The position numbers and the translations under genes are program-made. From an uncultured Maribacter sp. (GTDB lineage Bacteria; Bacteroidota; Bacteroidia; Flavobacteriales; Flavobacteriaceae), in the NCBI GenBank assembly GCA_947493885.1, contig CANLTE010000002.1, positions 434,001 to 498,000 of the forward strand: 64,000 bases of DNA, read 5' to 3'. The notes beneath the pieces are model-generated. The model was given only the letters and a program-made list of their open reading frames with translations. It did no database searches and was not told where the DNA came from. Positions 39,386 through 50,827 of this stretch are shown in pieces. The number at the start of each line of letters is the position of its first letter. Position 1 is the first letter of the stretch.

Positions 39386-40279
39386 CTAGGGTACAAATGA
39401 ATTTAAATTATTGGAATGTAGTGGCACATAGTTTTCGATAATTGTTTGGGTAATTTTTTTTAAGGTTTCACCATTTACAGGGTGTAACCCTGGAGCCGTA
39501 AAAAATTCTACCTCTCCATTTTTGTTTTTATAGTACCAAACCAAAGGTTTATTAGTTGTTTCTGAAAAAAAGTCAAAAGACATGCTCACATTAACTTTTT
39601 TCATGGTCTTAAACTCTGCTGGGTTTAAGGGTTTAATGGGAGTGCCATATTTTGAAAGAGACCCCATGTCACAAGAAACTTTTACATATGATGTGTCCGC
39701 CCATGTCATACATTGATTAACGTGGGTAGAGGCGGCTTGTCTGTTGTTATTATAGTTAAAATAGAACCCGCTTATTAATGCGCACATTACCGTGATACTT
39801 ATGGTAGGTATTATTTTTTTCGAAGCTTGGTTTTTGACTATTGGGTTATTTTTATTTGGTTTAGGAGAGCCTATAGGTTGTGCAATGTTCTGTTTTTTAG
39901 GGAAAGGGAAACTATTTTGAGGTTTTAAATATTCCGACCTAGGTCTTGGCTTAAAATCGACAAGCCATGCAATTAATTCTAAATTTTTGTCACTGGTATT
40001 ACTGGTTTCTCCAATTAAGAAGTTAACTATAGGTCGAAATTTATCTGCATCGAAGTTTTCTATTGTTTTTAGTATTTCCTTCTGTTCTTTAAAATTGAAA
40101 AAACGGTTAAGAATTTGAGGGTCGTTTTTTTCGTTTCTAATTTCTAACGCCCAGATACATGCTTCTCGTATTTTTTTTCTAGTGGGCTCAATAAAAAACA
40201 TGCCCATTTCTCCATTTTTTTCTCTTTCATATTTTTTTAAAACTTCTTTTTTGTAGCCTTCAATTGTCTTTTTTTCCAT
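39386..40279 (-). CDS. Single-TM protein of unknown function, possible two-component target
   Basis: 297 residues, family not recognised. Seen: a charged helical cytoplasmic part (1-150; EACIWALEIRNEKNDPQILNRFF and LIAWLVDFKPRPRS), one TM near 155-175 (PTISITVMCALISGFYF), and an extracytoplasmic domain with two Cys (QCMTWADTSYVKVSC) and WYYKNKNGEVEFFTAPGLHPVNGETLKKIT. It is divergent from the small lipoprotein-kinase cluster; its leader holds six phased repeats and its promoter a degenerate response-regulator palindrome. Confidence 0.65.
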   Translation of the reverse strand: MEKKTIEGYKKEVLKKYEREKNGEMGMFFIEPTRKKIREACIWALEIRNEKNDPQILNRFFNFKEQKEILKTIENFDADKFRPIVNFLIGETSNTSDKNLELIAWLVDFKPRPRSEYLKPQNSFPFPKKQNIAQPIGSPKPNKNNPIVKNQASKKIIPTISITVMCALISGFYFNYNNNRQAASTHVNQCMTWADTSYVKVSCDMGSLSKYGTPIKPLNPAEFKTMKKVNVSMSFDFFSETTNKPLVWYYKNKNGEVEFFTAPGLHPVNGETLKKITQTIIENYVPLHSNNLNSFVP

Positions 40280-40287
40280 GGTTTGGT

Positions 40288-40340
40288 TGGAATTGTTGGA
40301 ATCTTTCTGGAATTTCTTGGAACTATTGGAATCTTTGGAA
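40288..40340. repeat. Six phased TGGAA repeats
   Basis: TGGAA begins at 40288, 40297, 40308, 40318, 40327 and 40336, spacing 9, 11, 10, 9 and 9 bp. On the leftward transcript they read UUCCA and end 8 bases before the ATG of the 40279 gene. The upstream frame is open but without a usual start codon. A protein-binding array or RNA leader motif is possible. Confidence 0.7.
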
Positions 40341-40416
40341 TTACCTGTAAATACTGCTCTTCATCTAATTTAACTTTGCATCATCAGCAAGTTCTTGTTA
40401 TGAAATGCTAACATAA

Positions 40417-40452
40417 CAAATGTACAAAACAAGCTGATACGGAAATCTGTAA
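40417..40452 (-). promoter_or_regulatory. Leftward promoter with degenerate palindrome
   Basis: Leftward -7 box TACATTTG at 40424-40417, preceded 17 bp upstream by a degenerate TTACAGATATCTGTAA (40452-40437; 13 of 16 match). Predicted start of the 39386-40279 transcript, giving a leader of about 130 bases that contains the UUCCA repeats. Binding by the neighbouring response regulator is inferred. Confidence 0.45.
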
Positions 40453-40593
40453 TGCGGCTGGTATTCAGTCAAATGGAAAGTAACTAAGTACTGCCGCATT
40501 TGATTTTCACTTTCCAAAAACAAGGGAGTACTCCAAACACTCAAGGGTGGTTGAAAAACGAAACAAATCTGGGAAAAACCTGGACAGCCACCC
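40451..40593. other. Dense inverted repeats in the leader of the 52-residue lipoprotein gene
   Basis: Seen: AATGCGGC (40451-40458) with GCCGCATT (40493-40500); TGGAAAGT (40474-40481) with ACTTTCCA (40509-40516), interleaved with the first; the palindrome GGAGTACTCC (40525-40534); and GGGTGG (40545-40550) with CCACCC (40588-40593). No ORF. The GC-rich stems stand out in this AT-rich window and suggest a structured RNA leader or protein-binding region. Confidence 0.5.
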
Positions 40594-40620
40594 CATTGTT
40601 TAATTCCAAAATTTCAAATT

Positions 40621-40779
40621 ATGAAAAAAGTAAGTTTAGCCATTTTGGCAATAGTTTTTAATATGTTTTTGTTTTCTTGTAATAATGACGCAGTATCTGA
40701 AAATGATACTTTATATGAAACCCAATCAACTGAAGGGGATGATGGACAGGTTAAACCACCACCACCTCCTGCTGAGTAA
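40621..40779 (+). CDS. 52-residue lipoprotein next to sensor kinase
   Basis: ATG 40621, stop 40777-40779. Signal MKKVSLAILAIVFNMFLF then lipobox SC (Cys20); mature part NNDAVSENDTLYETQSTE and a Pro-rich tail (KPPPPPAE). Paralogue of 24269-24427 (same length, shared ND...LYE.Q). Followed by a strong terminator, then the TPR sensor kinase. A role as signal or accessory of that system is inferred from position. Confidence 0.75.
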   Translation: MKKVSLAILAIVFNMFLFSCNNDAVSENDTLYETQSTEGDDGQVKPPPPPAE

Positions 40780-40796
40780 TAAAGTTTAACTAATTT

Positions 40797-40827
40797 GAGT
40801 CATATCATTAGATATGACTCTTTTTTT
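40797..40827 (+). terminator. Strong intrinsic terminator after small lipoprotein
   Basis: GAGTCATATC (40797-40806) pairs with GATATGACTC (40811-40820), loop ATTA, then seven T. Separates the 52-residue lipoprotein from the kinase gene, so kinase expression needs read-through or a promoter inside the 24 bp gap. Confidence 0.85.
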
Positions 40828-40851
40828 AAATACATTTATTAAAAAATAATT

Positions 40852-42792
40852 TTGAATAAGTATTTATTATTCTGCTTAATTGGTTTGTTGTTTTCATGTG
40901 TTATGGATAATAAACATGATTTTTCAGAAAAGAAAGGAAGTAGAGGTAGGGCACGATTTTATTATAATACTTCAAAGGAGAAAACACTTTCTTTAAAACA
41001 AAAACTTGAAGCAATAAATGAGGCTTATAAGCTATCAAAAAGTATTTATTATGATACTTTGCTAGTAGATGTATTGTACAAAAAAAGCTTACTTCACTAT
41101 TCATTAAATGAATACGATAGCCTTAGTATTTATTGCAAAGAAACAGAAAAACTTGCGAGAAGTATTCATGATAATTTAAATCTAGCAAAGATATATTCGT
41201 TAAAAGCTTACTATTATGATGAAATCGTGAGTAACTCCGATAGCTCTTTTGTGAACTATAATTACTCCAAAAATTATTTTAAACAAATTAAAGATAGTAA
41301 TTGGGTTGGTAAGAATCTTTTATCTATGGGGCAAATACAACAAAACCAAAATGACTTTTTTGGAAGCAAAGAAACCATTACCGAAGCATTACAATATCTG
41401 GATGTGAAAAAAGATGCTAAATACGTTTCCTCTTCGTACAATGCTTTGGCAACAAACCACAGAAAGTTATTAAACCATAAGGATGCCGTACAGTATTATA
41501 AAAAAGCAATTACCTTAACAAATTCAGAAAAGGATAAATCTATTTATAAAAACAATTTAGCAACAGCATACATTGATTCAAAAAATTATGATGAGGCTAT
41601 TTTATTGCTGTCAACAATAGTTGTGGATACTACGTTATTAGGTAATCAAAAGGAATATGCCAGAGTTTTAGATAACCTTGCCTATGCAAAATGGTTATCA
41701 GGAAAAAGCGTTATAGAAAAGGAGTTTGTTAAAGCTTTAGATTTAAGAAAACAAAATAATGATCAAAGAGGACAAATAGCTAGTTATACGCATCTAGGAG
41801 AATTTTATGCTAGAAAAAATAGCCGTAAAGCAGCAACGTATTTAGATTCTGTTATTCAATTATCTAAAAAATTAAAAATTCCTAGAGCGGAAAAGGACGC
41901 GTTAAAATATTTAATGGAAATAAAACCTGATAATGTTTATATACGTAACCGTTATGTATTTCTTCAAGATAGTTTGTATAACCAAGAATTGAAAGTAAAA
42001 ACGCAGTTTGCTAAATATAAATATGATGATAGGCTTAAGCAGGAATCTATTTTAAGGTTAGAAAAAGAAAAAGCGGAAAAAGAATTGGAGGTTAGTTATC
42101 AAAAAAATCAAAAAACAATTTCTTTCTTTGGTATTGCCTTATTAGGTTTGGGTTTAGGGTTTGTAAGTTATTTTTTTACACAAAGATCTAAACGATTAAA
42201 ACAATTAAATAAGACCGCAAAGCAAGAAGCCACTTTTCAAACCGAAGCGCAAATTGCACGAAGAGTGCACGACGATTTTGGGGCAAAACTAAACCATACC
42301 ATGTCGCTGGTGCAAAATAATGGAGATAAAACACTTTTATTAGATACCCTAGAAGGGCTTTATAACCAAAGCAGAAATTTTTCCCGTGAAATTAATGAGA
42401 TTGACACCGGAGCCAATTACAAAAACGAGCTTTTCGAAATGCTTAGCACATATGCCGCTGAAGTTAAATTATTCACTTTGGGAACTAAAGAAATAGATTG
42501 GACATCTATAAATCAATTAAATAAAACAGTGGTGTACAAAGTGCTTAGAGAGTTAATGATTAACATGTGCAAGTACAGTAAAGCTACTACGGTAACATTA
42601 AACTTTAAAAAAACATCAGCGGGTTTAAAAATTGATTATTTAGATGATGGTGTTGGAGCATCTGTAAAGGAATTACAACTAAAAAATGGACTTAAGATTA
42701 CAGAAAACCGTATTAATGCTGTAGGTGGAACAATTATATTTGATTCGGAAAAAGGAAATGGCTTTAAAGCCGAAATACAAATACCGAATTAA
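40852..42792 (+). CDS. TPR-containing lipoprotein sensor histidine kinase
   Basis: 646 residues, TTG start. Seen: lipobox GLLFSC (Cys16), TPR-like helices through about residue 390 (SSYNALATNHRKLLNHKDAVQYYKKAITL), a coiled stretch, TM near 420-440 (ISFFGIALLGLGLGFVSYFF), a HisKA_3-like phosphoacceptor helix (AQIARRVHDDFGAKL, His about 472) and an HATPase domain (VLRELMINMCKYSKATTVTL, DDGVGA, GLKITENRINAVGG). Periplasmic TPR input, cytoplasmic kinase. Paired with the response regulator 12 bp downstream. Confidence 0.92.
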   Translation: MNKYLLFCLIGLLFSCVMDNKHDFSEKKGSRGRARFYYNTSKEKTLSLKQKLEAINEAYKLSKSIYYDTLLVDVLYKKSLLHYSLNEYDSLSIYCKETEKLARSIHDNLNLAKIYSLKAYYYDEIVSNSDSSFVNYNYSKNYFKQIKDSNWVGKNLLSMGQIQQNQNDFFGSKETITEALQYLDVKKDAKYVSSSYNALATNHRKLLNHKDAVQYYKKAITLTNSEKDKSIYKNNLATAYIDSKNYDEAILLLSTIVVDTTLLGNQKEYARVLDNLAYAKWLSGKSVIEKEFVKALDLRKQNNDQRGQIASYTHLGEFYARKNSRKAATYLDSVIQLSKKLKIPRAEKDALKYLMEIKPDNVYIRNRYVFLQDSLYNQELKVKTQFAKYKYDDRLKQESILRLEKEKAEKELEVSYQKNQKTISFFGIALLGLGLGFVSYFFTQRSKRLKQLNKTAKQEATFQTEAQIARRVHDDFGAKLNHTMSLVQNNGDKTLLLDTLEGLYNQSRNFSREINEIDTGANYKNELFEMLSTYAAEVKLFTLGTKEIDWTSINQLNKTVVYKVLRELMINMCKYSKATTVTLNFKKTSAGLKIDYLDDGVGASVKELQLKNGLKITENRINAVGGTIIFDSEKGNGFKAEIQIPN

Positions 42793-42804
42793 ATTTATTT
42801 TGCC

Positions 42805-43470
42805 ATGTTTAAAAAAGTATTAATAGTAGAAGATTTTCAGGCAACCCATAAAGGTATCGTAGATACGTTATCCGAAAAGTTAAAGGTTAAAGAAATACAA
42901 GAGGAACTTTATTGCGATAAAGCCTTTACCAGATTAAAAGTTGCCAATGCCAATCAAGTTCCTTTTGAGCTATTAATTACAGACCTTTCGTTTAAAGAAA
43001 GTCATGTTGAACGCAAGTTAACTTCAGGAGAAGAACTTATTAGGGAAGCCAGAAAATTACAGCCAGACATAAAAATAATAGTATACTCTCAGGTAGATAA
43101 TCCTGCAAAAATAAGAGCGCTTTTTCAAGAATATAAAATTAACGCATATGTGTGTAAAGGTCGTGACGAGTCGTTATGGTTGATGAATGCCGTTAACGCT
43201 GTGCATAAAAATACCACTTACGTTTCTCCTCAAATAAATATGGCAACTACAGATACAATTTTTGAACTCGATGACTTTGACGTTCAAATTCTTAAAGAGC
43301 TTGCCGACGGATTAACGAAAAGAGAAATTGCAGCAAAATTTAAGCAAAATAAAATTACACCAAATAGCGAGAGTACTATAGATAAAAGGGTAAGTAAATT
43401 GTATGATGAATTTGAGGCAAAAAATACAACACAGCTTATCGCGATACTTACCAAAATAGGACTTATCTAA
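42805..43470 (+). CDS. NarL/LuxR-like response regulator
   Basis: 221 residues. Seen: receiver with VLIVEDFQATHKG, phosphoacceptor Asp about 60 in LLITDLSF, IIVYSQVDNPAKI and YVCKGRDESLW (conserved Lys); HTH domain about 155-221 (FDVQILKELADGLTKREIAAKF, then STIDKRVSKLYDEFEAKNTTQLIAILTKIGLI). The HTH is a longer, diverged variant of the LuxR type. Probable targets: promoters carrying TTACAGATATCTGTAA directly downstream and at 46175. Confidence 0.92.
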   Translation: MFKKVLIVEDFQATHKGIVDTLSEKLKVKEIQEELYCDKAFTRLKVANANQVPFELLITDLSFKESHVERKLTSGEELIREARKLQPDIKIIVYSQVDNPAKIRALFQEYKINAYVCKGRDESLWLMNAVNAVHKNTTYVSPQINMATTDTIFELDDFDVQILKELADGLTKREIAAKFKQNKITPNSESTIDKRVSKLYDEFEAKNTTQLIAILTKIGLI

Positions 43471-43505
43471 GTACTGAAAAAAACTACTCACTAACCATTT
43501 TTAAG

Positions 43506-43554
43506 TTCCTTACAGATATCTGTAAGGAATTCTTTTTTTATGGTATTAGGTTTG
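43506..43554 (+). promoter_or_regulatory. Regulated promoter module A (palindrome plus -7 box)
   Basis: A 24 bp perfect palindrome at 43506-43529 (core TTACAGATATCTGTAA 43510-43525) followed by TTCTTTTTTT, then TAGGTTTG -7 box (43547-43554), 26 bp after the palindrome's ATC half. The same core, spacing and surrounding sequence recur at 46175-46219. The stem plus T-run could also terminate the response-regulator transcript. No TTG -33 box, suggesting activator dependence. Confidence 0.7.
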
Positions 43555-43583
43555 GGGTGTTAATAATCTTAAAAACCAATATT

Positions 43584-43733
43584 ATGACAGTTGAGCATAC
43601 TCTAACAGAAGAAATTCATAAAGGCACCAAAGGAGGAATTATAGGGTGTGGTTTTGATACTACTTTACATTCGAATCATTGGGTAAGTGTAAGTGCAGAA
43701 ATTACTTGTGATAAAAATGGATGTAAAAATTAA
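43584..43733 (+). CDS. 49-residue peptide with GG-leader-like N-terminus
   Basis: ATG 43584, stop 43731-43733. Sequence features: an acidic/polar first part (MTVEHTLTEEIHKGTKGG) ending in Gly-Gly, then IIGCGFDTTLHSN, HWVSVSAEITC and a final DKNGCKN, giving three Cys. No signal peptide. First gene behind the regulated promoter module. It could be a precursor peptide or simply a small cytoplasmic protein; no maturation enzyme or peptidase-ABC transporter is nearby. Confidence 0.6.
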   Translation: MTVEHTLTEEIHKGTKGGIIGCGFDTTLHSNHWVSVSAEITCDKNGCKN

Positions 43734-43743
43734 ATAAAAACAG

Positions 43744-43959
43744 ATGTTTATAAAGCCCGTTAAGCTTACTACAATTTTTATGTACCTGTTTTTTATTTCT
43801 TGTGACATAAGTAATACAGATGAATCCGATTCTAAAATAGAGTGGGAGTGTGGAACACATAATGAAAATTCATTGTTTACAGGACCAAAAGGAGGATGTT
43901 ATTATAACAATAGTAAGGGAAATAAAACTTACGTAGATAGGTCAGAATGTAGTTGTTAA
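43744..43959 (+). CDS. Small Cys-rich lipoprotein with GPKGGCYY motif
   Basis: 71 residues. Signal with lipobox FFISC (Cys20), acidic linker and a C-terminal ECGTHNENSLF TGPKGGCYYNNSKGNKTYVDRSEC, five Cys in all counting the lipobox. The GPxGGxYY...GxKxYVDR core resembles the PBCV-type basic adaptor motif found in short secreted bacterial proteins. Ten bases after the 49-residue peptide gene; same operon. Confidence 0.65.
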   Translation: MFIKPVKLTTIFMYLFFISCDISNTDESDSKIEWECGTHNENSLFTGPKGGCYYNNSKGNKTYVDRSECSC

Positions 43960-43978
43960 ATAATATAAATAATCTTCT

Positions 43979-44137
43979 ATGAACCCGCATTTAGAAATAA
44001 CAATAATATCTCTTTTCATAATTATTCTATTTTTTGTCCTAATAAGATCCATTATTCTTTGGTATTATAAAATTGATAAAAGAATTAGTTTAATGGAAGA
44101 GAATAATGAACTTTTAAAAAAACTATTAGACAGATAA
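43979..44137 (+). CDS. 52-residue single-TM peptide with C-terminal coil
   Basis: ATG 43979, stop 44135-44137. One TM helix near residues 6-28 (EITIISLFIIILFFVLIRSIILW) and an amphipathic cytoplasmic helix (KRISLMEENNELLKKLLDR). Such peptides recur in Bacteroidota operons as possible assembly or scaffold peptides; no function known. Confidence 0.65.
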   Translation: MNPHLEITIISLFIIILFFVLIRSIILWYYKIDKRISLMEENNELLKKLLDR

Positions 44138-44190
44138 TTAATATCTATTCTATCAAAGAATACAAATAAGAAATCTTAACAATAACTAAA

Positions 44191-44436
44191 ATGGGAGAAA
44201 AAAGAGATACTTATAAATATCATTTCAAAATTGGAAATTTAAAAGTACACTGTGGAATTACATATAATCTTAATGTGAGAGAAAATCAACATAAAAACTC
44301 AGGTAGATACTCTGTTTATAAAGATAAAAGATATTACTGGAAAAACGGCCATATAGTACAAATAGGAAGTATTACAACCAGAAAATCTGCTATGGATTGG
44401 GAGCGCGAAAACAATTGTAATGCAAACTGGAATTAA
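44191..44436 (+). CDS. Small GIY-YIG-like protein
   Basis: 81 residues. KYHFKIGNLKVHCGITYNLNVRENQHKNSG has the spacing of a GIY-YIG core (variant YHF...HCGIT, Arg in NVREN, His in QH), and DWERENN carries a possible Glu metal ligand. The canonical GIY and YIG tripeptides are altered, so nuclease activity is uncertain. Stop overlaps the following ATG (TAATG). Confidence 0.55.
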   Translation: MGEKRDTYKYHFKIGNLKVHCGITYNLNVRENQHKNSGRYSVYKDKRYYWKNGHIVQIGSITTRKSAMDWERENNCNANWN

Positions 44437-44675
44437 TGAATATGAAATACAAGGTAGTGCCCTTAGAGCCAAGTTTTGACTTAAAATCATCAGCATCAAA
44501 AGATGCTTCTGATTATTTAGAAAGATTCATTAATCATTATGAAAATCAAGGATGGGAATATTTAAGAGTAGAGGTTATTTCAACATACGTATCTGGAGAT
44601 AATGGTTGTTTTGGATTTGGATCTACTCCAGGATATACTCAGAATAAACAAATGGTGGTATTTAACAAGAATTAA
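44436..44675 (+). CDS. DUF4177-like small protein
   Basis: 79 residues. MKYKVVPLEPSFD start, ASDYLERFINHYENQGWEYLRVE, then FGSTPGYTQNKQMVVFNK: the pattern of short DUF4177-type proteins (KYxVV...INxxxxxGWEYxxV...MVVFxK). No signal peptide. Translationally coupled with genes on both sides. Confidence 0.65.
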   Translation: MNMKYKVVPLEPSFDLKSSASKDASDYLERFINHYENQGWEYLRVEVISTYVSGDNGCFGFGSTPGYTQNKQMVVFNKN

Positions 44676-44963
44676 ATGAAATATCTAATAATAATAACAA
44701 TCCACCTTTATTGGTTTTTAATCCCAAAATCAAAACGTAAAAAATGCATATTTAGAAAATCTTGTTCTACATATGTATATGAAAAAACTTCTATTAATGG
44801 ATTCTCTATGGGAATTAAAGCCTTTAGATTCCGTTATAAAAATTGTCGTCATGGTTTTGAAATTTTTAAAAACCCCATTGATGATAGTATTCAGGTGATT
44901 TTACCTAATGGTCAAATTATCGGTGAATTGGAAATTGCTAAAAGATTAATAAAGCTAAAATGA
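44676..44963 (+). CDS. YidD-like protein
   Basis: 95 residues. Hydrophobic N-terminus (YLIIITIHLYWFLIP), then KCIFRKSCSTYVYEKTSINGFSMGIKAFRFRYKNCRHG, matching the YidD pattern CxFxPSCSxYxxEAIxxHGxxKGxxLxxxRxxRC. The usual C-terminal GGxDPVP is replaced by GFEIFKNP and a variable tail. YidD proteins aid membrane-protein insertion near Oxa1/YidC; this is likely a diverged paralogue specialised for this operon. Confidence 0.75.
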   Translation: MKYLIIITIHLYWFLIPKSKRKKCIFRKSCSTYVYEKTSINGFSMGIKAFRFRYKNCRHGFEIFKNPIDDSIQVILPNGQIIGELEIAKRLIKLK

Positions 44964-45169
44964 AAGTAACTATAGTACTTCTTTTTCTACTCATTTTCAA
45001 TATAGAAAAAACAGAAACTTTTGTTTATATCTGCAAAACCAAAAGCAGTAAAAAATATCATTATCGTAAAAATTGTAGAGGACTTTCTCGCTGCTCGACT
45101 ACTATAGAAAAAATCACTAAACAAAAAGCAAAAGCATCCGGTAAAACTCTTTGCGGTTGGGAGGACTAA
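44960..45169 (+). CDS. Small secreted Cys protein
   Basis: 69 residues. Signal peptide (VTIVLLFLLIFNI), then VYICKTKSSKKYHYRKNCRGLSRCSTTIEKITKQKAKASGKTLC. The motif VYxCxSxxxxxYHxxxxCRGLxxC is common in short secreted Bacteroidota domains. Four Cys; function unknown. Overlaps the YidD-like gene by 4 bp. Confidence 0.7.
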   Translation: MKVTIVLLFLLIFNIEKTETFVYICKTKSSKKYHYRKNCRGLSRCSTTIEKITKQKAKASGKTLCGWED

Positions 45170-45183
45170 CAAATTTATCTAAT

Positions 45184-46088
45184 ATGAAAAAAAGTGTTTA
45201 TTTTTTATCATTTTTTTCTATACCTTTTTTCAATTATGCTTTTCCCAACATTATGAGACAATTCTTAGGGAAAAAGTTCTCGTTAAAAATAGATCTATCT
45301 ATTTGAATGGTGGATTAAATGCTTCTTTAGGAGGAACTTCAAGAATCTATATAGAAGTTGATTTGCTGCCAAATACCGTAGAATGGTATTATAGTTTTAC
45401 CACTAGTAAAGGTAAAAGTGAAGTTAAAAATTTGGGGTTAGCAATTCAACTAGGTTCACTTCTTACTGGATCAAGCGGATTAGCATCAACTACTTTATCT
45501 CGCATAAAAGTACCAACTGGAGAAGTAAACATTGATATCTATTTATGCGATAACAGTAATATAAAAGGATTTATTAAAAAATATGATAATTACGGTGGTT
45601 TGTTTTCTTTTTATACAGAAGGAACTGTACAAAGCACAAAACAAGCTGTTGTACATATTGACGATATAAGGTCTGGTGTATGGTATCTCGGGATTAAAAA
45701 CCCGAGTACCTCCTTTGGATTAAATATTGATATTGAGGTTGTAGCAGTCGTTGAAGAAAAAGTATTGATAGAAAAACCAGAAAAGCAAAGTAAAGCAGAG
45801 TTATATGGTAACATTGCATTATCTCATTATAATAACGGGGAGTATGAAAAATGTATTAAGTATTGTAATAAAGCAAATCAAGAAAAAAAGCTAGGCTGGA
45901 TTTTTGTTTGTAAAGGCATTGCCTTACTAAGACTGGGAAAGGAAACAGAATCTACTGAAGTTTTTATTGATGCAATTATGTTGATTAAAAAAGAACCTGA
46001 TGCTAATCAAACAATTGACTGGGCAATTAAAAATTTGGATAATATTATTTGGTTCAATTGGAACTTACAAGCGGCAAAAGGACATTAA
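45184..46088 (+). pseudogene. Secreted TPR protein gene with -1 frameshift near the 5' end
   Basis: The signal-peptide start (ATG 45184, MKKSVYFLSFF) is in one frame and stops at 45304; the rest (to 46088, 290 residues) is in the -1 frame, which carries FYTFFQLCFSQHYETILREK. Joining them at the T7 run 45211-45217 gives an intact signal peptide ending FSQ and a 301-residue protein: a beta-rich domain (ASLGGTSRIYIEVDLLPNTVEWYYSF) and a C-terminal TPR (AELYGNIALSHYNNGEYEKCIKYCNKANQ). Homopolymer error, real mutation or programmed slippage are all possible. A TTG at 45303 could give a 261-residue cytoplasmic remnant. Confidence 0.7.
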
Positions 46089-46142
46089 AACTATGATAAT
46101 AAATCAAAGGGAATAAAGTATAAAACTAATTTTTATCAATAA

Positions 46143-46171
46143 AAAAGAACAGCAATTTGCTGTTCTTTTTT
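46143..46171 (+). terminator. Intrinsic terminator of first small-protein operon
   Basis: AAAAGAACAGCA (46143-46154) pairs with TGCTGTTCTTTT (46158-46169), 3-base loop, then TT. Directly precedes the second regulated promoter module. Confidence 0.85.
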
Positions 46172-46174
46172 GCT

Positions 46175-46219
46175 TTACAGATATCTGTAAGGAATTGTCT
46201 TTCAATGGTCTTAGGTTTG
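46175..46219 (+). promoter_or_regulatory. Regulated promoter module B (palindrome plus -7 box)
   Basis: TTACAGATATCTGTAA (46175-46190), the same 26 bp distance, and TAGGTTTG (46212-46219). Sequence between and after (GGAATT, AATGGT, TTAATAAT) also matches module A at 43506. Here the T-run is broken and a separate terminator lies upstream, so the palindrome's conserved role is as a binding site. Confidence 0.75.
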
Positions 46220-46246
46220 ACATATTAATAATTTAAAAATAATACA

Positions 46247-46435
46247 ATGGGATTTCCAAAATTTGAAATTAAAAAAAGTAGTAACAGTAAATTTTATTTT
46301 AATCTAAGGTCAAAAGGTAACGGTGAAATTATCGCCACAAGTGAGATGTATGAATCAAAACAAAATTGTAAAAACGGAATTGCGGCTGTTAAACGCGATG
46401 CACCTAATGCAGAAGTAGAGGACACAACGATTTAA
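46247..46435 (+). CDS. DUF1508 (YegP-type) single-domain protein
   Basis: 62 residues: FEIKKSSNSKFYFNLRSKGNGEIIATSEMYESKQNCKNGIAAVKRDAPNAEV is one complete YegP/DUF1508 unit (FYFNLxxxNGExIxxSExYxSKxxCxxGIxxVxxNA). Many family members hold two units. Cytoplasmic, function unknown. First gene of the second operon. Confidence 0.88.
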   Translation: MGFPKFEIKKSSNSKFYFNLRSKGNGEIIATSEMYESKQNCKNGIAAVKRDAPNAEVEDTTI

Positions 46436-46481
46436 CAGAAGAAATAGTTTTAAACAAGCATCCAAATAATAATATATAAAA

Positions 46482-46853
46482 ATGAAAACTAGTTTTTTCA
46501 CAAATATTGTCCGGGGTACCTCCGTAATATGTGCATTACTTTTATTTATAGCTGTGTTACAAGCTCCACAAGATTATTATTGGATGCTTAGAATTATAAT
46601 TTTTTTCGGAGCAATTTTAGTAGTAATTAAAAATGGCTCTCAAAAATATTGGATATTCATATTTACTGTTATTGCAGCACTGTTCAATCCTATACTTCCC
46701 GTTTACTTGTACAAAAAAATACTTTGGATGCCAATAGATATACTTGCAGGAATGGTATTTCTTATTGAGGTAATTATAAATCGACCTAAAAAGAGAATTC
46801 AAGTAGTTTCAGAAAAGGAAGAAAAGCAATATACAAGAGATAAAATTTATTAA
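46482..46853 (+). CDS. DUF6804-like four-TM membrane protein
   Basis: 123 residues, four TM helices (GTSVICALLLFIAVLQ, YWMLRIIIFFGAILVVI, WIFIFTVIAALFNPILPV, ILWMPIDILAGMVFLIEVII) and a charged C-terminal tail. FNPILPVYLYKKILWMPIDI is characteristic of DUF6804-type proteins. Function unknown. Confidence 0.65.
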   Translation: MKTSFFTNIVRGTSVICALLLFIAVLQAPQDYYWMLRIIIFFGAILVVIKNGSQKYWIFIFTVIAALFNPILPVYLYKKILWMPIDILAGMVFLIEVIINRPKKRIQVVSEKEEKQYTRDKIY

Positions 46854-46870
46854 TTAAACCAGTCATTTAT

Positions 46871-47275
46871 ATGCAAAAGACAAAAATAACGGTAGAATTA
46901 AAAAGTCATTTTTTAAGGCTTTATCAGATTGCGCTTTCTGATGAAAATTTTAGTCATTTAGAAATGCAATTACTCTACAAATTTGCTGAGGAAAGAGGAG
47001 TTTCTAATCTAGAGTTAGATAAAATATTAACTAACCCTGTTGGGGAAACAACAATACCCGAAAGTTTAGAAAAAAGAATTGCCTATCTCTATGATTTAGC
47101 ATTAATGATTTGGGCTGATAATGTAGTAACAATAGATGAAGAGAACACACTTAAAAAGTATATTCAAAAATTCAATTTTTTAGATGAAAATGTGGACGAG
47201 TTGTGCGAATATCTTTTGGAAAGTGCTAAACAAGAAAAATCGAAACAAACAATATTAAACGAACTTAACGAATAA
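46871..47275 (+). CDS. TerB-like helical protein
   Basis: 134 residues, all helical. LKSHFLRLYQIALSDENFSHLEMQLLYKFAEERGVSNLELDKIL and LYDLALMIWADNVVTIDEENTLKKYIQKF match the TerB/DjlA-N pattern of acidic helix pairs (A-D--I---E---L). TerB proteins link membrane stress systems and bind metals. Here no TerC/TerD genes lie nearby; the vWA-like lipoprotein two genes on recalls TerB-vWA associations. Confidence 0.7.
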   Translation: MQKTKITVELKSHFLRLYQIALSDENFSHLEMQLLYKFAEERGVSNLELDKILTNPVGETTIPESLEKRIAYLYDLALMIWADNVVTIDEENTLKKYIQKFNFLDENVDELCEYLLESAKQEKSKQTILNELNE

Positions 47276-47283
47276 ATATAGTT

Positions 47284-48549
47284 ATGGGAATTTTAAAAAA
47301 GTTAGTAGCGTTAAGACCAAAAAATGAATTAAAGGTTGTAGGTACTTCGCAAACTAACCAAAATAGTAAAATAGATTATAACACAGAAGGGTATGAAACC
47401 TCCAAATCCTGTCAAGGAAGAGAGTATACACTTAAAACATCTTTAGAAACTATTTATCAAAAGTTTGAAAATGATAGCAAAATAGATATATCTAATCAAG
47501 AAAGATTAAAACAGCCATACACCACTGAATTAAAAGGAAAAACTACTGCATTACTAAACAAAAATGAAGAAAAAGAAACTTTGGAAAAAGAAGTCCAAAC
47601 CTATGAAAATGAAATTGAAAAACTTCATCAGGATACAATTAATGTAAGAAGAAATCCAAATGAGTATGGATTAAACGTTGATAAAAAGTCAACGGCAAAA
47701 TTTTGGATTGGATTACTTTTCTTATTGCCCTTATCAGCATACATTTTAATCTTTTATATTTCTACCTCGTATTCTGCTTTTTTCAGGACATTTGATCCAA
47801 GTACAAGTCTTTTTCAAGGTATGTTTTATCCTAAAGCGTTATCCAAAGCTTATACAGATGGCCTTTTAGAACTCGGTTTTGTGTTGTTCATACCTTTTGT
47901 GTTTTTTGCTTTAGGATATCTTATACACATGTTTCAAGAGAATAAAGGGCTTATAAATGTATTTAAGATAATAGCTCTTTTTGTGATTACCTTTTTATTT
48001 GACTCAATTCTTGCTTACCTAATTGATGAAAAGTTGTATAACCTAAATAAAACTTTTGATAGCCCAGAATTTAGTGTGGCAATAGCTTTTCAAAGTGTAG
48101 GTTTTTGGCTGATTATTTTCGCAGGCTTTGTTTCATATATCGTATGGGGATTAGTATTTGATTTTGTTATGAAAGAACATGCAGACAGAGATAAAATACA
48201 GTCGTTTATTACAGATAAATTGGAGGAAATTGTTAATAAGGAAAAGCGAATTATAAAAATTAAAAATGGGATTAAAAACATTCAGGATGGCATATCTGTC
48301 TTAGAAAAAAGAATTGCAGAATTACAAAATATAGTAGATGGGTTCATACTACCAATACGGAATTACAAATTACTTTCCGCCCAATATTTACAAGGATGGC
48401 AAAAATATATTGATGCGGAACTGCGCATTGGAGTAAATGAAAAAAACATTCTTCAAGAAACATGCAGGGGGCTTTACGAAAAGCACATTAAAAGCTTAGA
48501 GTTAGATGTTGACGATTACCAAAACAAAGTATATACCAAAACACTATAA
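47284..48549 (+). CDS. Coiled-coil four-TM membrane protein
   Basis: 421 residues, not recognised. N-terminal helix/coil (1-135, with NKNEEKETLEKEVQTYENEIEKLHQ), four TMs between about 140 and 295 (FWIGLLFLLPLSAYILIFYIS, VLFIPFVFFALGYLIHMF, IIALFVITFLFDSILAYLI, SVGFWLIIFAGFVSYIVWGLVF), then a second coiled coil (KRIIKIKNGIKNIQDGISVLEKRIAELQN). Membrane scaffold or sensor in the TerB-vWA operon. Confidence 0.65.
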   Translation: MGILKKLVALRPKNELKVVGTSQTNQNSKIDYNTEGYETSKSCQGREYTLKTSLETIYQKFENDSKIDISNQERLKQPYTTELKGKTTALLNKNEEKETLEKEVQTYENEIEKLHQDTINVRRNPNEYGLNVDKKSTAKFWIGLLFLLPLSAYILIFYISTSYSAFFRTFDPSTSLFQGMFYPKALSKAYTDGLLELGFVLFIPFVFFALGYLIHMFQENKGLINVFKIIALFVITFLFDSILAYLIDEKLYNLNKTFDSPEFSVAIAFQSVGFWLIIFAGFVSYIVWGLVFDFVMKEHADRDKIQSFITDKLEEIVNKEKRIIKIKNGIKNIQDGISVLEKRIAELQNIVDGFILPIRNYKLLSAQYLQGWQKYIDAELRIGVNEKNILQETCRGLYEKHIKSLELDVDDYQNKVYTKTL

Positions 48550-48551
48550 TA

Positions 48552-49484
48552 ATGAAAAACATAATAAAAAGCTTTTTCTTTTTTGTATTCATGTGCTTTA
48601 CATCAGCTTGTGCAGAAGAGAAAAATAATACACAGAAAAAAGAAATAGTTGTACATGCTGAAAATGTAAATCTAAATTGTCCTCCACACATTATAAAGAA
48701 TAAGCAAAATAATTTGAATATAAGTGTACTATTAGATTTATCTGATAGGATAGAAATCGATAAGCAAATTCATAAAGATTCCTCTTATTTAGCAAGTTTA
48801 TCTAAAGCATTTGTTACACATGTTAAAACTAAGAAACTTTTGTTTTTAGAGGATCGATTAAAGTTGTTTTTTAACCCGGAGCCTTCAAACAATAAAATAC
48901 ATGAGATAGCTCAAAAGTTGGAGGTTGTTTTTACAAGAGAAACCAGTAAAAGTAATATTGAAGAAACTCAAACAAGATATAATCAGTTACCTTCTGTACT
49001 GTATCATTTAGCGCGTAGTGATGCCCAAAAAAATAAAGGTTATCCAGGTTCGGATATTTGGCGTTTTTTTAAAGATCATGTTAAAGATTATTGCGTAGAT
49101 AATTGTCATAGAAATATTTTGGTGATTTTGACGGATGGATACATGTATCATCATAAAACAGTCATGAAACATGAAAATAAAACCTCATTCTTAACTCCAA
49201 AAAGCCTTTCAGATTTGAAATTAAGAACTCCGGATTGGGAGAAAAACATTAAAGAAAAAGATTTAGGGTTTATTCCGGCAACTGATAATTTAGAAGATTT
49301 AGAGGTGTTGGTAATTGGTATTACCAGTGAAAACAAAAATCCGTATGCACAAGATATCATTACTACTTATTGGCAAAATTGGTTTGTGAAAATGGGAGTC
49401 AAAAGTAATCACATAAAAGTCAAAAGTGCTGATATTCCTAGTAGTATTGAAAAAGTAATTTTTGATTTTATTTTAAATAAATAA
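48552..49484 (+). CDS. vWA-like lipoprotein
   Basis: 310 residues. Lipobox FTSAC (Cys21). NISVLLDLSDRIE gives the strand and D-x-S of a MIDAS site, with Arg in place of the usual second Ser. PGSDIWRFFKDH and NILVILTDGYMYHH supply the later strand and TDG. This suggests a vWA fold with partial metal site, periplasmic or surface-exposed. Two bases after the coiled-coil membrane protein gene, suggesting a shared complex. Confidence 0.7.
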   Translation: MKNIIKSFFFFVFMCFTSACAEEKNNTQKKEIVVHAENVNLNCPPHIIKNKQNNLNISVLLDLSDRIEIDKQIHKDSSYLASLSKAFVTHVKTKKLLFLEDRLKLFFNPEPSNNKIHEIAQKLEVVFTRETSKSNIEETQTRYNQLPSVLYHLARSDAQKNKGYPGSDIWRFFKDHVKDYCVDNCHRNILVILTDGYMYHHKTVMKHENKTSFLTPKSLSDLKLRTPDWEKNIKEKDLGFIPATDNLEDLEVLVIGITSENKNPYAQDIITTYWQNWFVKMGVKSNHIKVKSADIPSSIEKVIFDFILNK

Positions 49485-49486
49485 CT

Positions 49487-50005
49487 ATGGCATTCAGGTT
49501 TAATAGGAGAGTTAACTTGGGAAAAGGATTAGGAGTAAACATAAGTAGATTTGGGATAACGCTTATTTACAAAACTAAACGAGGAAGTTTAAGCACAAAA
49601 AGTTATTCTGTACGAACGGGTATTCCTGGGTTAGTATATCGAAAAAACTTTTCTAAGACTAAAAATAAAGGGTGCATTATATTTTTTTTAATACCATGGA
49701 TATTTTTGTTTTTAATATTTTCTTGTTCTGCAGCAGATAGTGTTAATGATTCCAATCCATGTGAAGATACTAATTGTGCCAATTATATTTCTCAATCTGA
49801 AGCGCAAGCAGCCTATGACGCAGACCCTGAATGTAGAAATGATTTGGATGCAGATAAGGATGGAATAGCGTGTGAAGAACCTGGTAATGGAATAAAAAAT
49901 TGTGCTACAACATCTAATTGTGGATGCTCGGGAAAGAATAAATCTTCTTGCCAATCTGATTCATGTTGTAAATGGATTGTTGGTACAGGGTGTAAATGCA
50001 GTTAA
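49487..50005 (+). CDS. DUF4236 - TM - excalibur protein, Cys-rich
   Basis: 172 residues. Domains: DUF4236 (1-52, FRFNRRVNLGKGLGVNISRFGI with GIPGLVYRK), one TM (CIIFFLIPWIFLFLIFSC), an excalibur calcium-binding domain (about 96-128, ISQSEAQAAYDADPECRNDLDADKDGIACE), and a Cys-rich tail (CGCSGKNKSSCQSDSCCKW, ending GCKCS). The excalibur motif is normally extracellular. Stops 9 bases before the K+ channel start. Confidence 0.85.
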   Translation: MAFRFNRRVNLGKGLGVNISRFGITLIYKTKRGSLSTKSYSVRTGIPGLVYRKNFSKTKNKGCIIFFLIPWIFLFLIFSCSAADSVNDSNPCEDTNCANYISQSEAQAAYDADPECRNDLDADKDGIACEEPGNGIKNCATTSNCGCSGKNKSSCQSDSCCKWIVGTGCKCS

Positions 50006-50014
50006 TTTGTAGTT

Positions 50015-50827
50015 TTGAAAACTAGTGTTTTATATATTATTGAGAACTCCATAATTTCAAAATTTATTTATGGATTGATATTTCTTAACATTATAGCTTT
50101 AATTTTAGAGTCTAACAAAGATGTAGAGAACCATTATTTCACTTGGTTTAAGGCAATTGAATACATTTCAATAGCATTATTTTCTTTAGAATATTTATTA
50201 AGACTTTGGACCGCTAGTATTAATAAAAACATAAAACCTAAATTTGGGTCAAAAAGACTAGGATATATAGTATCAGGATATGGTATTATAGATTTAATCG
50301 CCGTGCTTCCGTTTTATCTTCCAATTTTAATTGGATGTGATATGAGAGTTCTAAGAACTTTAAGATTTTTTAGAATTTTGCGCATTCTAAAACTTGGGAG
50401 GTATTCTAAATCTTTAAAACTGATTAAAAAGGTACTTCATGAAACTAAACCGCAATTAATTGTAACAGTTTTTGCTACTTGGATTTTGTTGATAGTAGCT
50501 TCTTTTTTAATGTATTATGCGGAGAATTTGGCTCAGCCTGATAAATTTTCAAGTGTTGCAGATGCAATGTGGTGGGCAATAGCTACATTAACAACTGTGG
50601 GTTATGGAGATGTTTATCCTATAACCGCAATGGGTAAAATATTAAGTGCAGTTATAGCTTTAATTGGTATTGGTTTTATTGCTCTTCCAACAGGTATTCT
50701 GAGTTCTGCTTTTATCGAAAATGTTAAAAAGGAAAAGTTTGGTAAACAAAATTTTTGTAAATGCTCAAATTGCGGACAAAAAATAAATTTGACAGAGGAA
50801 GCATCAAAAATTAGTTGTCAAAACTAA
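50015..50827 (+). CDS. Voltage-gated potassium channel, 6-TM
   Basis: 270 residues, TTG start. Seen: S1-S3 helices, an Arg-rich S4 (MRVLRTLRFFRILRILKLGRYS), pore helix and selectivity filter ATLTTVGYGD, S6 (ILSAVIALIGIGFIALPTGILSSAF) and a C-terminal zinc-ribbon-like CKCSNCGQKI with a final Cys. Inner-membrane K+ channel of the KvAP/Kch class. Its end overlaps the convergent nuclease gene by 17 bp. Confidence 0.93.
   Translation: MKTSVLYIIENSIISKFIYGLIFLNIIALILESNKDVENHYFTWFKAIEYISIALFSLEYLLRLWTASINKNIKPKFGSKRLGYIVSGYGIIDLIAVLPFYLPILIGCDMRVLRTLRFFRILRILKLGRYSKSLKLIKKVLHETKPQLIVTVFATWILLIVASFLMYYAENLAQPDKFSSVADAMWWAIATLTTVGYGDVYPITAMGKILSAVIALIGIGFIALPTGILSSAFIENVKKEKFGKQNFCKCSNCGQKINLTEEASKISCQN

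Follow-up and report, generated by a model that had tools for sequence, protein, structure and literature searches.

A two-component system of an uncultured Maribacter sp. very probably controls its own neighbourhood through a conserved palindromic operator. The system, a TPR-bearing membrane kinase and an RcsB/NarL-type response regulator, is encoded in a 64,000-nucleotide (nt) stretch of DNA (GenBank assembly GCA_947493885.1, contig CANLTE010000002.1, positions 434,001 to 498,000 of the forward strand), the whole of which is termed the window here. In the proposed model, the regulator, presumably as a phosphorylated dimer, would bind TTAC[AG]G-N4-C[CT]GTAA at the position normally taken by the -33 element and recruit RNA polymerase to promoters that have only a -7 box, TAnnTTTG (class II activation). 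It would drive two putative operons with 15 small, mostly unknown genes in this genome and other accessory genes in relatives, in many of them also a ~70-nt small RNA (sRNA) whose gene usually lies immediately behind that of the regulator. The lipoprotein-kinase-regulator unit would have a third operator within its leader RNA, most likely for feedback control. The argument draws on comparison of the site, its spacing, its co-occurrence with the regulator, the correlation of half-site and recognition helix, and the structure of the RNA.

Two identical sites beside a regulator gene

The sequence-only reading of the window had proposed that two operons share an identical palindrome and -7 box next to the gene of a NarL-like regulator, and the letters bear it out. 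The 16-mer TTACAGATATCTGTAA is exact at both places (Table 1), and after a gap of 21 nt each copy is followed by TAGGTTTG, which starts 26 nt past the ATC of the palindrome. The blocks GGAATT, ATGGT and TTAATAAT are common to both flanks, and neither site has TTG at the usual distance from the -7 box, again as that reading had said. Site 2 does have TTG at 46195-46197, 14 nt ahead of the -7 box, which is closer than the usual spacing. The genome scan for 16-mer and -7 box that had been suggested as a check makes the two zero-mismatch sites stand out: in the whole genome (G000, 3.84 Mb, in which the window is C2:434001-498000), TTACAGATATCTGTAA is exact in 2 places against 0.006 expected from composition. 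Allowing up to two mismatches adds two two-mismatch places, both judged by eye to be without TAnnTTTG at 21 nt, and one of them (C3:529307) resembles coding sequence. Within the window, up to three mismatches to the 16-mer give 4 matches against 0.65 expected. At up to three mismatches, palindrome plus -7 box gives 46 matches in the genome against 34 in the reversed control, so that by this route the genome alone singles out only the two zero-mismatch sites. A one-mismatch match at 42698 lies within the kinase gene and was set aside as probable chance.

The usual position of a class II activator is -41.5. A study of transcription starts in Flavobacterium psychrophilum puts the TAnnTTTG -7 box of sigma-A promoters at -12 to -5 (PMC9723704), and with the box so positioned the palindrome centre falls at -41.5 at both Maribacter sites. 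The sequence geometry accordingly has the two marks of class II, an operator near -41.5 and a missing upstream promoter element. This position would make activation by the regulator likelier than repression, and the module naturally lends itself to testing class II activation where a promoter has TAnnTTTG only.

That the NarL-like regulator is the binder was the earlier proposal; it holds for the protein's class at the level of fold (NarL/LuxR) and gains comparative support, which makes binding itself probable. The receiver's acidic pocket, phospho-acceptor Asp, Ser/Thr and Lys are kept, with D10, D60, S95 and K118 invariant in 28 orthologues (alignment A1; 28 of 30 fetched, the partial L008 and L033 being left out). 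In L008 (genome G002), the 3ʹ end of the regulator comes early and is followed by transposase-like sequence near the contig end. The AlphaFold2 model (predicted local distance difference test score 92) has a receiver with alternating strands and helices and a C-terminal four-helix LuxR-type helix-turn-helix (157-167, 172-181, 189-202 and 208-217). Its best folds in the PDB are spr1814, RcsB and LiaR, with the RcsB-rprA promoter complex 6zj2 also listed, and the alignment profile matches spr1814 (4e-13), RcsB (2.4e-12) and also VraR. The single sequence stays below the Pfam cut-offs (Response_reg 21.6 of 30.2 bits, GerE 17.3 of 23.5), and the protein is therefore filed by fold and profile. In the kinase, TPR_12 is above the Pfam cut-off and HATPase_c (E 8.6e-5) below it; the lipobox and membrane span were read by eye. 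This uncharacterised pair is now tied to concrete promoters.

Together with TTCC/GGAA and a T-run, site 1 also forms a terminator-like hairpin (12 bp, -15.4 kcal/mol) overlooked in the sequence-only reading. Since this hairpin is followed by TTCTTTTTTT and stands directly behind the regulator gene, the palindromes could be taken for intrinsic terminators of the preceding genes rather than for operators. However, site 2 has no T-run and sits just behind a separate terminator-like hairpin, and neither the fixed 21-nt spacing nor half-sites that follow the regulator's helix, both described below, is expected of terminators. A terminator role in place of an operator is highly improbable; site 1 may be both.

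Table 1. Features of the window around the kinase-regulator pair
Feature	Positions	Strand	Basis or content
Divergent gene	39386..40279	-	No Pfam match; candidate regulator of the RNA-lipoprotein-kinase-regulator unit
Six ATTCCA/GTTCCA direct repeats	40288..40341	.	~10 bp apart; between divergent gene and RNA promoter
Class B RNA region	40371..40593	+	-7-like TAACTTTG (40371-40378), then structured RNA with H-type pseudoknot
Third (internal) palindrome copy, ATACGGAAATCTGTAA	40437..40452	.	3 mismatches; within RNA-coding region
52-amino-acid lipoprotein-like open reading frame (ORF)	40621..40779	+	MKKVSLAIL...FSC...PPPPPAE; between class B RNA and kinase
Sensor histidine kinase	40852..42792	+	Lipobox-like N-terminus, TPR region, one membrane span, HATPase domain
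Response regulator, 221 amino acids, RcsB/NarL-type	42805..43470	+	Receiver and LuxR-type helix-turn-helix; conservation, fold, profile
Site 1, palindrome TTACAGATATCTGTAA	43510..43525	.	Exact match; same position in orthologous loci of relatives
-7 box TAGGTTTG, operon 1	43547..43554	+	Sequence; 21 nt is the family's modal spacing
Putative operon 1, 8 small ORFs	43581..46088	+	MTVEHT peptide, GIY-YIG-like (below cut-off), YidD, TPR protein, others unknown
Terminator-like hairpin 3ʹ of operon 1	46140..46172	+	15 bp, T-rich 3ʹ arm, -16.9 kcal/mol (46140-46176)
Site 2, palindrome TTACAGATATCTGTAA	46175..46190	.	Exact match
-7 box TAGGTTTG, operon 2	46212..46219	+	Sequence
Putative operon 2, 7 ORFs	46247..50827	+	Pfam scan of ORFs

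The module across flavobacteria

Comparison with relatives argues that palindromic switches beside this sensor-regulator pair are real and recurrent across flavobacteria. Among 80 relatives, a protein search finds the regulator (E <=1e-20) in 32, the Maribacter genome included, and downstream of these regulators lies a like layout in which the palindrome is often TTACGG-N4-CCGTAA. Palindrome plus TAnnTTTG at a gap of 19-23 nt was found in 25 of the 80 genomes, the reversed pattern giving 2 matches; 24 of the 32 regulator-carrying relatives have the module and 1 of the 48 others. In a larger sample of 299 Flavobacteriaceae genomes, 178 match the regulator at 1e-20 and 118 have a clear orthologue (E <=8e-44, a line set by eye at a gap in the values). 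The exact module at 21 nt is present in 78 of the 299 (reversed pattern, 6 matches), comprising 73 of the 118 orthologue-positive and 5 of the 181 negative genomes (Fisher p 8e-32, uncorrected for shared ancestry). Genera g19, g96, g97, g114 and g116 each have one sampled genome with both orthologue and module and one with neither.

The spacing is fixed and the sites are intergenic. In 80 titled regulator-orthologue loci (1.58 Mb; Arenibacter, Cellulophaga, Zobellia, Aquimarina, Flavobacterium and others, some metagenome-assembled), TTAC[AG]G-N4-C[CT]GTAA is exact 87 times against once in reversed sequence, and one-mismatch palindromes number 81 against 21. TAnnTTTG follows 61 of the 87 exact palindromes at exactly 21 nt, any other spacing occurring at most twice. 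Promoter-type sites number 103 in 63 of the 80 loci; the definition allows one mismatch in the palindrome, requires 5/6 or better for the -7 box at 21 nt, and excludes the internal sites upstream of the kinase. Within 3.5 kb 3ʹ of the regulator lie 85 of them, 101 are on its strand and 100 are outside ORFs of at least 100 amino acids (random positions, 349/2060). The 103 share the consensus TTACGGatatCCGTAAGG, followed by a spacer of weak conservation, which has tgg close to its end, and then by TAnGTTTG. The cas1 case in L065 (one mismatch, -7 box 5/6) is probably chance, yet is counted among the 103. The operator is strong enough for sequence-based target prediction in dozens of flavobacterial genera.

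Identity of sixteen bases and of short blocks nearby could also mean that the two Maribacter copies merely stem from a recent duplication of a promoter fragment. Two TTACAGATATCTGTAA modules each are also present in relatives such as G002, G163, L067 and L071, with their own spacers and differing genes behind them, and duplication as the sole reason for the identity is scarcely credible. One genome, G107, has six modules (C1:267, 6044, 6923, 25337 and 43219; C13:362912) with similar AAAACCCAATCCCAATCACCC-like spacers, five of them within the first 44 kb of C1, as though one promoter cassette had been copied repeatedly.

The half-site proximal to the promoter varies with the recognition helix of the regulator, a strong correlation across the loci compared. 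The helix has two main forms, an SES-type in 34 loci and others in 46. SES-type (E) helices go with T at the varying base of this half (CTGTAA) in 42 of 48 sites. Among the 55 sites with non-SES helices, that base is C in 50, A in 4 and T in 1. The same holds for the internal operator upstream of the kinase, which reads CT[GA]TAA in 16/18 SES-type cases and CCGTA[AG] in 13/13 others. Aquimarina sediminis w01 has two paralogous systems, each with the half-site that matches its own helix: CTGTAA at the promoter site of L100 and CCGTAA at the internal site of L095.

The palindrome might instead be bound by another protein, such as the product of the divergent gene at 39386-40279 or an extracytoplasmic function (ECF) factor, the regulator being a mere neighbour. 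The divergent gene is kept beside the system and looks regulatory, and 5 sites in Aquimarina have a Sigma70_r2 gene as the first one behind them. However, the internal palindrome is present with both groups of divergent protein, the TTCCA-repeat type 1 and the others, the palindrome variants follow the regulator's helix, and genome-wide co-occurrence, which was tested for the regulator, was found with it. A different binder is improbable.

The regulator-dependent promoter module is supported by these comparisons, and several observations weigh against it. The exact module is absent from 45 of the 118 regulator-positive genomes, and promoter-type sites are lacking in 17 of the 80 loci. In five genomes, the module is present and no orthologue was detected (G017, G150, G173, G275 and G320; G150, G275 and G320 are less than 90% complete). 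At the level of genera, g11 and g92 have the module also in a genome without a detected orthologue, g4 has it in a genome whose regulator match is weak, and g14, g18, g70, g113 and g117 have an orthologue genome without the exact module. Site 1 is itself terminator-like, and the correlation between helix and half-site is not a count of independent events because both follow clades.

A predicted structured leader RNA and a small RNA

Upstream of the 52-amino-acid lipoprotein, the kinase and the regulator lies a region that would be transcribed into an RNA of ~210 nt, labelled class B. RNAalifold gave a poor structure from the MAFFT local alignment on both strands, so the fold of the window's own sequence was adopted, to which an H-type pseudoknot was added. 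In alignment A4 (31 sequences, 248 columns), it pairs 79.1% of cells, a measure on which its derivation from the window's member favours it over slid versions. Two-sided changes occur at 48 of 64 pairs (210 cells), which 0 of 500 shuffles reach and against which slid versions give 25-31 pairs. Folding z is -3.55 on the plus strand and -2.26 on the minus strand. Alignment A5 uses 30 of 31 sequences; L099, almost the same as L097, is left out.

Searching 81 sources with a covariance model built on the first 148 positions gave 49 hits, every one on the plus strand; 30 are training sequences and 19 are not. Under strict filters, the model hit 20 places in a search of 149 genomes, spread over 19 of them. 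An orthologous regulator follows within 3 kb downstream of 17 of these places; the others are in G018, G037 and G176 (C47). In G018, the structured RNA (C26:37912) and two sites (C26:39219 and 40423) stand apart from the regulator on C15, through a contig break or as a detached island. Rfam gave no more than 5 sub-threshold matches in window positions 39800-47000, all to miRNA and snoRNA families, and in relatives L065, L071, L099, L108, L112 and L125 only a tRNA and an L19 leader, both elsewhere. The structured RNA and the sRNA described below, which have no Rfam match, were both brought out by the operator.

The internal copy of the palindrome, overlooked in the sequence-only reading, is kept in relatives. 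It lies within the 5ʹ arm of a covarying helix and could therefore be an RNA stem only, with no regulator site. However, its right half switches between CTGTAA and CCGTAA with the regulator type, as at the promoters, and the base that switches, in A4 column 82, belongs to none of the pairs counted; the stem-only account is a real but lesser possibility. A minus-strand promoter at 40437 (TATGTTAG at 21 nt) was rejected, since the box is 5/6 among the class B rows listed, as if mirroring an RNA loop. That reading is also disfavoured by G-U cells (209) exceeding A-C cells (118), an excess that favours the plus-strand class B RNA. With an operator inside the leader, feedback on expression of the system itself would be the simplest idea.

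Of the 49 RNA hits, 37 were checked for a lipoprotein, and a lipoprotein-like ORF with a lipobox-like cysteine, mostly ~45-70 amino acids long, is behind 33 of them, mostly ~100 nt on. The proline-tailed 52-amino-acid lipoprotein is a possible signal or sensor partner. On the other side of the RNA, type 1 divergent proteins go with 2-6 TTCCA repeats ~10 bp apart in 16/16 loci, and the 20 loci with other types have 0-1 TTCCA repeats and mostly AGAC/GTCT repeats. The pairing suggests that the divergent gene encodes a DNA-binding partner with matched operators.

The sRNA is found in relatives behind the palindrome: 20 sequences from 18 loci, whose regulators all have non-SES helices. Here no gene comes next; the palindrome precedes a -7 box (mostly TAnnnTTG or TAnnTTTG), GCTATTA or a close variant, AGGGA in 13 of the 20 sequences, and a terminator ~70 nt on. 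Nine titled loci have the palindrome start 10-14 nt past the regulator stop codon. The set (A2) holds 20 of 25 candidates, L013 (which duplicates the genome of L108) and L020, L089, L119 and L126 (poor or different) being left out, and some loci may share species with others. On SES-type loci, with the window (L005) among them, the finder returned L089 only, rejected as spurious. Locus L108, from the same genome as G012, has three sRNA copies (9035, 15869 and 15993); that genome has two close regulator copies. A consensus fold of the sRNA has 0 pairs, because MAFFT left the terminators unaligned. A role as CsrA sponge was considered and rejected: none of 40 relatives has CsrA over the Pfam cut-off (1 sub-threshold match; E. 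coli, B. subtilis and T. maritima controls positive). With CsrA absent, the sRNA is therefore no Csr/Rsm sponge in the known sense.

A broader picture is tentative and on balance doubtful. In it, the system would be a self-contained signalling island: a new pseudoknotted RNA, with an operator of the regulator built in, would control the very small, secreted lipoprotein, the kinase with its periplasmic TPR and the regulator; the lipoprotein or its tail would be the signal for the TPR; and the output would be the sRNA, in many lineages, and nuclease-rich accessory genes, an interchangeable set captured through gain of a single standard promoter cassette.

Genes behind the sites and comparison with known systems

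The earlier count of about 15 genes is fair, with 8 and 7 ORFs in the two putative operons. The description as a small regulon stands for these two and falls short of the whole, which is wider, with the sRNA in relatives and the operator inside the structured RNA. The first four ORFs of operon 2 are DUF1508, DUF6804, TerB and an unknown, and the last three are lipoprotein-like (weak DUF4969), DUF4236/Excalibur (both below cut-off) and an ion channel. PADLOC on 10 window proteins gave a single weak hit, the TerB-like protein, and a defence island was rejected on that result.

Behind relatives' sites, 78 of 80 first ORFs were scanned (A3; ATG starts, at least 30 amino acids; one ORF longer than 1000 amino acids and one running off the locus or likewise over-long left out). 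Among the 25 of 30 Pfam families listed, the commonest are DUF1508 (9), HSDR_N (6), Sigma70_r2 (5), DUF6567, Exo_endo_phos, TerB and HNH (3 each); SNase and KTSC occur once each. In G033 (L009), a DUF1508-like protein, recognised by eye, is first behind the one module site. The Sigma70_r2 matches are all in Aquimarina (L093, L094, L098, L100 and L103), where a sigma factor as first gene would make the regulon a cascade. DUF1508, HSDR_N, HNH, the exo/endonuclease-phosphatase and TerB would gain a shared condition of expression.

In the open literature searched, no paper describing the operator was found, and the exact strings returned 0 papers. The Riemerella genes RAYM_RS09735/09740 were considered and dropped, being described as an OmpR/PhoP-type pair and so of another family (PMC5399024). 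F. psychrophilum sigma-A promoters have the TAnnTTTG -7 box in common with the module; in the main text of that study, palindrom and TTACGG occur 0 times (PMC9723704).

The regulator has the fold of RcsB, a NarL family protein of enterobacteria. There, rprA is an sRNA target of RcsB, so that in both systems an sRNA is among the regulator's targets. However, the operator here is another one, the promoters are TAnnTTTG-only, and a single TPR kinase stands in place of the hybrid phosphorelay through which RcsB is signalled. As at class II activator promoters, the operator overlaps an upstream element that lacks its consensus.

GacA is likewise a NarL-type regulator. The GacS/GacA-RsmY/RsmZ system of pseudomonads has a palindromic upstream activating sequence, TGTAAG-N6-CTTACA, and small RNA targets (PMC4950607), and a palindromic upstream sequence and small RNA targets are what the two systems share. 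However, the operator consensus here is TTACGGatatCCGTAAGG rather than TGTAAG-N6-CTTACA, and the sRNA adjoins the regulator gene; the operator and CsrA tests both fail, and the system is therefore no Gac/Rsm member. The regulon is NarL-type, a known kind, in a new architecture, and the leader RNA and the ~70-nt sRNA are two apparently undescribed RNAs. The finding is a well-supported regulon, and the added RNAs raise its interest.

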